Of a stretch of 64,000 nt of DNA, positions 7,282 to 57,390 are shown piece after piece. Where the stretch lies: positions 372,001 through 436,000 of the forward strand of contig NZ_RJTN01000001.1 in assembly GCF_005497185.1 (NCBI RefSeq), read 5' to 3'. Numbering within the stretch: position 1 is the stretch's first letter; the number at the start of each line of letters is the position of its first letter. The stretch comes from Pectobacterium polonicum. Lineage in GTDB: Bacteria > Pseudomonadota > Gammaproteobacteria > Enterobacterales > Enterobacteriaceae. Below the pieces are notes generated by a model. It had not been told where the DNA came from. It made no database searches and worked only from the letters and a program-made list of their open reading frames with translations. The translations under genes were made by a program, and so were the position numbers.

Positions 7282-7499
7282 CGTGTCTCCCTTCGATATC
7301 ATAAAAAGTAATGAATCAGCCAGAACTGAACTCTCCGCGTTCTGCATCGGATTAAAATAGGACAACGGGGGGACTCGGTATACATTTTTAGCGACTTTTA
7401 TCACTTTTTATCCAACTTCAACTGGACAAAAGGTCAATCTATTGTTGTACTGTACGTGACACAGATTTTGTGTCTTTCATTCATGTAAAGGTAAGTTTG

Positions 7500-7709
7500 A
7501 TGTCTAAGATTAAAGGTAGTGTTAAGTGGTTTAATGAGTCCAAGGGCTTCGGTTTCATTACTCCAGAAGATGGTAGCAAAGACGTGTTCGTACACTTCTC
7601 TGCCATCCAGAGCAATGGTTTCAAAACTCTGGCTGAAGGTCAGCGTGTAGAGTTCGAAATCACTGACGGTGCCAAAGGTCCTTCTGCTGCTAACGTTAAC
7701 GCTATTTAA
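7500..7709 (+). CDS. cspE: Cold shock-like protein CspE
   Basis: A 69-residue single cold-shock domain nearly identical to E. coli CspE. The RNA-binding motifs are KGFGFI (residues 15-20) and VFVHF (29-33). CspE is a constitutive RNA chaperone and transcription antiterminator. The start at 7500 gives the standard MSKIKG N-terminus; in-frame codons upstream are leader. The cspE-crcB-tatE-lipA neighbourhood matches E. coli. Confidence 0.97.
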
Positions 7710-7727
7710 TTATACCGATTTCGTGAA

Positions 7728-7754
7728 AAACCCGCCAATGGCGGGTTTTTTTTG
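7728..7754. terminator. Terminator between cspE and crcB
   Basis: AAACCCGCC pairs with GGCGGGTTT around AAT, followed by a run of T. The genes are convergent, and the A run before the stem lets it work on both strands. Confidence 0.9.
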
Positions 7755-8158: not shown

Positions 8159-8250
8159 AGAAACCTTTCTTGGATTGTTTTTTTACCTAGATTGTTTTTG
8201 CGATCTCGGAGAGTGTTGGGCAGGACGCTACGCCCTCTCTGCGAGGTGGA

Positions 8251-8340
8251 CGTAGACATCATTAGCCGAGTGGCGGTTGTACCCTGTTTTGAGGCTGTCA
8301 GCGCTTTGGCTGCGCCAGGGTAGGGAGGAATGTCATCTCC
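8251..8340 (-). ncRNA. Fluoride riboswitch (crcB motif)
   Basis: The minus strand from 8340 reads GGAGATGACATTCCTCC, then a variable stretch, then ACAACCGCCACTCGG and CTAATGATGTCTACG, ending at 8251. These are the conserved blocks of the crcB RNA: the 5' GGNGAUG...CCUCC stem, the AACCGCC pseudoknot strand and the 3' UGAUGAYNYCUACG block. An extra stem, TACCCTG with CAGGGTA, encloses about 32 bases between the first two blocks. About 90 bases separate the aptamer from the crcB start. Ligand binding of fluoride is established for the family; here it is inferred from the match and the downstream gene. Confidence 0.88.
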
Positions 8341-8491
8341 GCGTAGTGTGGGAAGTGTACGCCGTCAGACGGGATTTTTGTAGTGATGCAGAGGGGAAAG
8401 TTGTAAAGCAATCTGAATACGGGCGAAAACGCTCGTGCGCGTCTTACTTTGTTACAGATGGAGATTGTGTCGTGCTGCATAAGGTTTTACA

Positions 8492-8755
<264 letters not shown>

Positions 8756-8849
8756 AAGCGCTGAAGATTTTTTCTACAGCGTGCTTTGTAGAGAAGAGAA
8801 TAGTCTCGTTTGCTGGCGTCTCCAGCCTCTGTAAATCAGGTAGGTTTGT

Positions 8850-31757: not shown

Positions 31758-31849
31758 GCCTGCCATAAAAAAATGCAGGGAACGTTTTTCAACGTTGCAG
31801 AGCAACGACCCGAAGGGTGGCAGGCAAGGATAGCCTGCCATAAAAAATG
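31758..31849. repeat. Three-hairpin intergenic repeat, copy 1
   Basis: Direct repeats GCCTGCCATAAAAAAATG (31758-31775) and the same with one A fewer (31833-31849) flank or overlap a core at 31776-31841. In the core CGTTGC/GCAACG, CCC/GGG and GGCAGGC/GCCTGCC form three consecutive hairpins. A second copy at 57208-57272 has the same three stems with different paired bases. Confidence 0.7.
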
Positions 31850-35502: not shown

Positions 35503-35577
35503 TGGCTGGGGTACGAGGATTCGAACCTCGGAATGCCGGAATCAGAATCCGGTGCCTTACCGCTTGGCGATACCCCA
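35503..35577 (-). tRNA. glnV: tRNA-Gln (CTG)
   Basis: A 75-base cloverleaf with encoded CCA; acceptor TGGGGTA with TACCCCA, anticodon loop TTCTGAT. Last gene of the cluster. E. coli has a second copy (glnX) after this one; none is present here. Confidence 0.97.
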
Positions 35578-35583
35578 AAAATG

Positions 35584-35660
35584 TGGTGGCTACGACGGGA
35601 ATCGAACCTGTGACCCCAGCATTATGAGTGCTGTGCTCTAACCAGCTGAGCTACGTAGCC
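35584..35660 (-). tRNA. metU: tRNA-Met (CAT), elongator
   Basis: A 77-base tRNA with acceptor GGCTACG and encoded CCA; anticodon loop CTCATAA. It is identical in sequence to the Met tRNA at 36048-36124. The acceptor begins with G paired to C, as in elongator not initiator tRNA. Confidence 0.96.
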
Positions 35661-35714
35661 AAATGTACTGCTATTATCAATTCACTTCAAGAAAATCTTC
35701 TACTATCAAGTAGA

Positions 35715-35789
35715 TGGCTGGGGTACCTGGATTCGAACCAGGGAATGCTGGTATCAAAAACCAGTGCCTTACCGCTTGGCGATACCCCA
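35715..35789 (-). tRNA. glnW: tRNA-Gln (TTG), copy 2
   Basis: A 75-base tRNA with anticodon loop TTTTGAT and encoded CCA. It differs from copy 1 by a compensated pair in the anticodon stem (CTGGT/ACCAG against CCGGT/ACCGG). Confidence 0.97.
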
Positions 35790-35824
35790 ACAGAACAACA
35801 AATTTTTCAGCATGTGTTTTGAAA

Positions 35825-35899
35825 TGGCTGGGGTACCTGGATTCGAACCAGGGAATGCCGGTATCAAAAACCGGTGCCTTACCGCTTGGCGATACCCCA
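35825..35899 (-). tRNA. glnU: tRNA-Gln (TTG), copy 1
   Basis: A 75-base tRNA with anticodon loop TTTTGAT, stem CCGGT/ACCGG and encoded CCA; third gene of the cluster in transcription order. Confidence 0.97.
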
Positions 35900-35955
35900 A
35901 TCACTACAAAACACTAACAGGCTTCGAAAAGCGATGTTAAACCGAAAAGATAACA

Positions 35956-36040
35956 TGGTGCGGGAGGCGAGACTTGAACTCGCACACCTTGCGGCGCCAG
36001 AACCTAAATCTGGTGCGTCTACCAATTTCGCCACTCCCGC
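35956..36040 (-). tRNA. leuW: tRNA-Leu (TAG)
   Basis: An 85-base class II tRNA with long variable arm, acceptor GCGGGAG with CTCCCGC, anticodon loop ATTTAGG and encoded CCA. Confidence 0.97.
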
Positions 36041-36047
36041 AAAAAGA

Positions 36048-36124
36048 TGGTGGCTACGACGGGAATCGAACCTGTGACCCCAGCATTATGAGTGCTGTGC
36101 TCTAACCAGCTGAGCTACGTAGCC
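36048..36124 (-). tRNA. metT: tRNA-Met (CAT), elongator
   Basis: A 77-base tRNA, first of the cluster; identical to the copy at 35584-35660. The promoter lies 40 bases upstream. Confidence 0.96.
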
Positions 36125-57088: not shown

Positions 57089-57390
57089 GTTCTATCCCTT
57101 ATTAGCGCGGCCTGAACGGTGGCCAGGCCGCAGATAAAGCGATGTATGGAACGAAAACGGTGGTAATGGATAGAAGAGTAAAGCGTTTGCGCCATGGACA
57201 AAAACGTCAGGAACGTTTTTGAACGTCGCTTGCGACGGCCCTGAAAGGGTGAATCTCAGGGATGAGATTCATATCTGCGCAATCCGAGCGTACAGGGACG
57301 TATTCACAGCGTCTTTACGATCTACCCATTACCACCGCTCTGCAGCCTCGGCGGGGTTCCGTATAATAATTAATAGTAACGCACTGTCGA
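57089..57390. other. kdpC-kdpD intergenic gap holding a repeat
   Basis: 302 bases with no gene. The centre (57200-57272) is a palindromic repeat described separately. The rest, 57273-57390, is ordinary sequence ending in an AT-rich stretch (57361-57375) on the kdpC side; I see no certain promoter. Confidence 0.6.
57200..57272. repeat. Three-hairpin intergenic repeat, copy 2
   Basis: AAAAACGT (57200-57207) pairs with ACGTTTTT (57213-57220). Then come CGTCGC/GCGACG (57224-57237), CCC/GGG around TGAAA (57239-57249) and GAATCTCA/TGAGATTC (57251-57270). The last three stems match copy 1 at 31776-31841 in order and spacing, and most stem differences between copies preserve pairing. Confidence 0.75.

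Follow-up and report, generated by a model that had tools for sequence, protein, structure and literature searches.

The window, a 64,000-nt stretch of the Pectobacterium polonicum genome (NCBI RefSeq GCF_005497185.1, contig NZ_RJTN01000001.1, positions 372,001 to 436,000), holds four copies of a non-coding module about 74 nt long. All four were located with R1, a covariance model built from this genome's copies. Copy 1 (31767-31842, plus strand; 82.0 bits, E = 3.9e-17) lies between miaB and a phoH-like gene and is antisense to both, the flanking ORFs being on the minus strand; MiaB was recognised above the cut-off and the PhoH family below it. Copy 2 (57198-57273, plus strand; 92.7 bits, E = 1.4e-19) lies between kdpC and kdpD, again antisense to both (KdpC and KdpD above cut-off), and is embedded in a larger inverted-repeat element, a MITE at approximately 57157-57339 (no strand assigned) with inverted ends ACGGTGGTAATGGATAGAAGAGTAAAGCG and CGTCTTTACGATCTACCCATTACCACCGCT. 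Copy 3 (8576-8645, minus strand; 40.5 bits, E = 1.3e-7) and copy 4 (8661-8728, minus strand; 32.5 bits, E = 9.3e-6) occupy site 2 and site 1, respectively, of a single element at approximately 8491-8756 on the minus strand, which we take to be ERIC from its sequence.

The module consists of four hairpins in fixed order: hairpin 0 with an A-rich stem and the loop CNGGA or similar, hairpin 1, hairpin 2 with a CCC/GGG stem, and hairpin 3 with the loop ANGGA. In copy 2, hairpin 0 reads AAAAACGT-CAGGA-ACGTTTTT. GGA is present in loops 0 and 3 of copy 1 (31779-31781 and 31828-31830), copy 2 (57210-57212 and 57260-57262) and copy 3; copy 4 is without GGA. By reading, modules start with ACAAA or AAAAA, end mostly with CATA or GTA, and have no terminal inverted repeats of their own. 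We call copies with an A-tract at both start and end A-type (copy 1) and those in a MITE B-type (copy 2); the others lie in ERIC elements. The preliminary description had reported a two-copy repeat with three stems at 31776-31841 and 57208-57272. Both copies do lie there, within the longer units delimited by the covariance model, and the three stems are as described; the 5' hairpin, revealed by an alignment of 16 same-genome copies, had been missed. The four window copies folded better than their shuffles (z = -3.8, -4.2, -4.5 and -4.2), and none of 200 shuffles was as good in any case. A short string search is weak alone, as 13 of 100 window shuffles also gave at least two matches at three or fewer mismatches. 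The models, the genome-wide copies, the covariation against slid controls and the folds against shuffles together exclude a chance origin.

Two is also far too few for the genome as a whole. Results showed at least 105 R1 matches at E ≤ 0.001 and at least 115 at E ≤ 0.1, both lower bounds with 150 of 2596 candidates scored. Eleven units about 74 nt apart form a tandem array behind eno (named by NCBIfam), convergent to it, at G000:C4:82511-83324 (L114 2012-2825, minus strand). R1 matched at the eno site in 17 of 25 genomes of the genus, and the core count there was one unit in 11 genomes, two in 3, three in 2, none in 8, and 11 units in this genome. Since 16 of the 24 other species hold one to three units, the array represents a local expansion. 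A scan of its surroundings predicted no terminator on either strand, nor any promoter on the strand of the array; a T-ending stem was seen by eye 3' of the array.

The carriers were compared with and without their modules. Internal insertions of about 70 bp are known in ERIC. The right arm of ERIC gave at least 41 matches in the genome (40 of 162 candidates scored). Among the best 30 of these that were read, 24 were empty, three carried the module at site 1 (CAGG^AAGGCGG), one at site 2 (AAGG^AATCCCG) and two at both sites, the window element being one of these two. The kdpC-kdpD site was matched in 20 of 25 genus genomes, with MITE and module in 3, the MITE without the module in 3 and neither in 14, three of which held a plain ERIC instead; the apex of the MITE without the module reads GCGCCAGGG^ATGGCGC. 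The insertion point G^A is common to these sites; the ends vary by a few bases and gave no consistent rule of target-site duplication. Because ERIC and the MITE each occur with and without it, the module behaves as an insertable unit. Filled and empty sites are a MITE-like trait, and they uphold the mobile family that the preliminary description had offered beside a selected RNA fold or a cruciform. ERIC, IRU, RU-1 and other MITEs are likewise intergenic, dispersed and non-coding, and they carry the module here; in contrast to MITEs, the module is about 74 nt, lacks terminal inverted repeats of its own and sits in several different carriers. At the miaB site, matched in 13 of 25 genomes, a clean single junction was found in two and the other ten had diverged, decayed or been replaced; loss by recombination between direct repeats is as likely there as late insertion. 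Carriers nest or abut: at L249, an eno-orthologous site, a module-carrying ERIC-like sequence adjoins the eno-linked module.

The preliminary description recognised no named family. In E. coli K-12, however, the spacer between T1 and T2 of rrnB (L090 439-512) matches the module in sequence and structure over its full length (R1 80.8 bits, E = 7.5e-17), with all 24 module pairs formed. This spacer is the sRNA RrB, which, according to the sections consulted of Stenum and colleagues (PMC8144298), is read through from the rRNA operon and binds CsrA and Hfq. The same sections report CsrA binding by affinity purification and EMSA, with an affinity of about 100 nM, reduced when three GGA were mutated; they count five GGA in RrB, two of them predicted in stem-loops, and trace RrB, in the same place behind 5S, through at least 31 species from 12 genera. 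There, CsrA binding is scored as unlikely for the remaining 19 E. coli repeats linked to tRNA, the RrB phenotypes are modest, with deletion and overexpression looking alike, and RrB is treated as rrn-linked, not as a dispersed family; the rrnB double terminator that carries the module is noted as widely used on cloning plasmids. RrA, RrB and RrF (rrn double-terminator spacer, TLR family; PMC8144298, same sections) share the four hairpins in order with GGA in loops 0 and 3, as copies 1, 2 and 3 do and copy 4 does not. They differ in place: RrA, RrB and RrF follow 5S or tRNA between two terminators and precede a 3'-end repeat, whereas the copies in the window lie scattered outside tRNA and rRNA operons, within MITEs or next to terminator-like stems. 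They differ also in number, since 3,914 of 5,426 complete E. coli genomes had matches, the median number of places in these being 2, against the at least 105 copies here.

Relatives were found well beyond the genus. At E ≤ 0.001, R1 matched 83 of the 295 order genomes, from 35 of 99 genera. R2, a second model in which N replaces each letter of loops 0 and 3, matched at the same threshold in 124 of the 369 class genomes, from 101 of 272 genera, and in 58 of the 299 phylum genomes; 37 of these 58 are from other classes and mostly from one family. Loci from these searches are the best matches of each search, not a random sample. An exact-pattern scan of named genomes returned three stretches only, in Serratia symbiotica and Raoultella ornithinolytica. 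One query with the copy 1 region gave no match in phages, and one query of plasmids with the copy 2 region matched only 26 Pantoea records, which aligned with part of the query; identity was 60-80%, and 66% in the ten listed as H6-H15. Plasmids as the main route are unsupported by these partial matches.

The loop-masked model allowed the loop letters to be counted without having been searched for. Outside this genome, 29 class loci supplied 33 distinct copies, of which 32 had GGA in loop 0, 31 in loop 3 and 30 in both, against 7.4 and 12.1 expected for loops 0 and 3 from shuffled loops; loops 1 and 2 had it in one copy and none, respectively. ANGGA lay within loop 3 in 26 of the 33, and the sections consulted of a 2026 preprint give ANGGA as the CsrA motif in hairpins (PMC12889724). 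The 93 distinct copies of this genome had GGA in loop 0 in 41, in loop 3 in 42, in both in 35 and in neither in 45, so some lineages drop GGA and keep the fold. We had expected the presence of csrA to track the module across the class, which failed: of the 124 module genomes, 110 had a csrA match and 14 had none, compared with 203 matched among the 245 others (p = 0.17).

Neighbours of the relatives point to stable RNA genes. In 10 of the 29 class loci (L257, L261, L263, L264, L269, L272, L275, L276, L279 and L281) a tRNA gene of the same orientation ends 68-95 nt before the module start; the distance from 5S to RrB is similar, at 81 nt. Reading of the junctions showed that the module often splits the T-loop, as ...GGTTCG [module] AATCC..., and that the tRNA 3' end is then repeated behind it. 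An exact repeat (18-31 nt) of the stable RNA 3' end stood after the module at 8 of the 15 loci checked for it among those linked to stable RNA, including E. coli RrB. Of the 34 class copies 14, and of the 44 order-level copies 7, have TTCG in the 6 nt just before the module. Without any model, the pattern GGTTCG plus module start was found in 71 of 369 genomes at no more than one mismatch, and among the matches listed it had 123 places versus 31 for the backwards control (counted by hand). A tRNA or 5S neighbour on the opposite strand was seen at the order-level loci L066, L077, L087 and L088; at L088 the module stands between the genes for 5S and 23S rRNA and reads in the direction opposite to them. 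The module recurs in tandem about every 175-176 nt at L074 and L257; the repeat at L257 comprises terminator, module and tRNA 3' end. As strong flank complementarity (z below -2.5) was confined to a minority of copies, we do not claim a general outer stem.

The module also occurs next to csrA. Among the places listed, at least ten genomes had csrA followed, at a distance of about 160-1240 nt, by a module in the same orientation (by eye), and none was seen near csrA in the other orientation. R2 matched all ten csrA-linked stretches, L326 weakly (E = 2.5e-4); its 13 matches there had GGA in loop 0 in all 13 and in loop 3 in 12. Eight of the ten stretches contain tRNA-Ser(GCT), and six of those eight also tRNA-Arg(ACG). 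Given these tRNA genes, the linkage may simply follow the csrA-serine-arginine tRNA order, without csrA itself having to play a part.

Stem changes that keep pairing, as the preliminary description had read from two copies, were upheld in alignments across the genome, the order and the class. The covariance-model search it proposed as a check returned many copies instead of two only, and paired instead of unpaired changes. Identical rows were entered once in all counts. The 16-copy own-genome alignment was made without fitting to a model; 97.7% of its cells are paired, and double changes occur at 9 of the 24 pairs, versus 1-3 in slid controls. Alignments A2, A3 and A7 are model-fitted and so lean towards the models: the own-genome alignment A2 (88 distinct copies) was 95.2% paired with 22 of 24 pairs doubly changed (471 cells versus 38-65 slid), the cross-genus A3 (42 distinct) 97.5% with 21 of 24 (255 versus 14-50) and the class alignment A7 (33 distinct) 94.2% with 18 of 24 (177 versus 15-46). 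Since cmsearch discards overlapping neighbours, alternate units of the array are absent from A2 and A8. At the miaB site, 13 orthologues had 94.4% of cells paired versus 93.2% in shuffles (12 of 500 reached the observed value) and 5 doubly changed pairs versus 1.7 shuffled (2 of 500) and 0-3 slid, which we read as modest evidence that selection or gene conversion has acted at this site. G-U cells significantly outnumbered A-C cells on the GGA strand in only three of seven alignments (A1 13:3, A2 58:20, A8 55:24; not significant in A3 8:3, A7 7:2, A4 11:9 and A5 17:11). This excess supports an RNA on the GGA strand weakly, because the models themselves favour G-U. Covariation by itself fits both RNA selection and template-switching repair of DNA palindromes, and does not settle the choice between them.

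Taken together, the sequence evidence suggests that the module is probably an insertable, RrB-type CsrA-binding RNA unit of about 74 nt that has been amplified here, and CsrA binding is predicted for these copies. It would encode an RNA of four hairpins, the first and last offering a GGA loop (mostly CNGGA and ANGGA). It may move as a unit into hairpin or loop sites between G and A; candidate entry sites are the T-loop TTCG^AA, CAGG^AA, AAGG^AA and CAGGG^AT. In this genome it would have multiplied inside MITEs and beside terminator-like stems, and the array would have grown behind eno. The copies linked to tRNA or rRNA are likely the functional form. The dispersed copies here, many of them without GGA, are probably mostly passengers, and copies 1 and 2 are likely passengers too. 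Against a role for every copy stand the antisense position of copies 1 and 2, the GGA-less copies, the lack of strand bias in GGA-bearing copies and the non-significant csrA comparison. A larger reading, possible though on the doubtful side, would make this a mobile RNA module free of coding sequence, entering structured nucleic acids at G^A in their apical loops (copies of the tRNA T-loop and of 5S, and the apices of ERIC and the MITE) and thereby spreading ready-made CsrA-binding sites over the phylum, next to csrA as well, with the 11-unit array as a decoy acting as a CsrB-like sponge.

Dispersal with filled and empty sites would also be left by a purely DNA-level mobile element, whose transposase recognises single-stranded DNA hairpins as in IS200/IS605 or REP systems and for which CsrA binding is incidental. 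The low stem G-U content of A3 and A7 fits such an element, as does the loss of GGA from both loops, with the fold kept, in nearly half of the copies here. So do the strands in this genome, where we had expected GGA-bearing copies to sit sense to the upstream gene and found 26 such clusters sense and 20 antisense (p = 0.46). This context work covered 94 of the 105 matches at E ≤ 0.001, omitting ten of the eleven array units and the contig-end match C12:455-529. With a lower ORF limit, 12 of 87 clusters fell inside small, probably spurious ORFs; in the strand count, one cluster per group was without a flanking ORF, and ORFs below 300 aa overlapping a module were ignored. Yet a DNA-level element does not account for a loop-blind search that, outside this genome, keeps GGA at exactly two of four loops, nor for the sense orientation behind the tRNA in all ten class loci with a tRNA, and RrB binds CsrA experimentally (PMC8144298, sections consulted). 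We regard it as somewhat unlikely.

The GGA-less clusters behaved differently, 26 being sense and 10 antisense to the upstream gene (p = 0.011). This bias would suit an element acting chiefly on mRNA stability or at 3' ends like ERIC or REP, its hairpins protecting or exposing upstream transcripts independently of CsrA, and seven of nine A-type sites lie directly before a terminator-like stem (by eye). Effects of ERIC on upstream mRNA have been reported (PMC2229807, sections consulted). Such an element does not, however, predict two conserved GGA loops or the linkage to csrA and tRNA, and we hold it to be unlikely. Very improbable, finally, is that the compensatory changes come from mutation, template switching at quasi-palindromes copying one arm onto the other so that covariation would appear in any DNA hairpin of sufficient age: hairpins like these are plausible substrates and pairing is near perfect with G-U rare (8 of 989 cells in A3, 7 of 765 in A7), but loop conservation, the phylum-wide fixed hairpin order and the tRNA link are left unexplained, and G-U exceeds A-C in A1, the alignment not fitted to a model.

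As an RrB-type unit, the module resembles the sponge RNAs CsrB/CsrC and RsmX/Y/Z, which also present GGA in hairpin loops. It differs from CsrB/CsrC in being a four-hairpin insertable unit, and the array, if transcribed, would offer about 22 GGA-type hairpin loops. The module is not CsrB itself: RF00018 matches only C1:99454-99809 in this genome, which is not a module. A sub-threshold match to RF02144 rsmX occurs at L078 (44 versus 56 bits). RF02902 (AaHKsRNA22), an Aggregatibacter sRNA by its Rfam description, scores 40.0 against a gathering threshold of 39.8 on the copy 4 region (8664-8735), stays below gathering on copies 1-3 and 20 class loci, and is sub-threshold on L074 and L011.

CsrA/RsmA is a global regulator whose sponge RNAs, in the usual account, come from a handful of dedicated genes in each genome. 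If the favoured reading is true, CsrA titration could be coupled to the synthesis of stable RNAs and carried about by mobile elements, the module being present in 124 of 369 class genomes, and insertions inside ERIC would gain a function-bearing identity. Within the open-licence literature on dispersed repeats, ERIC insertions, CsrA elements and tRNA-linked repeats, a family member is described only in the sections consulted of PMC8144298, and those of PMC2229807, PMC10969869, PMC2267715, PMC11882849 and PMC12889724 describe none; within that literature, the dispersed family is unpublished.

Elsewhere in the window, Rfam models identified a fluoride riboswitch (8246-8349, minus strand) and a cspA thermoregulator (7324-7754, plus strand), both above gathering, and six tRNA genes are clustered at 35506-36124 on the minus strand.
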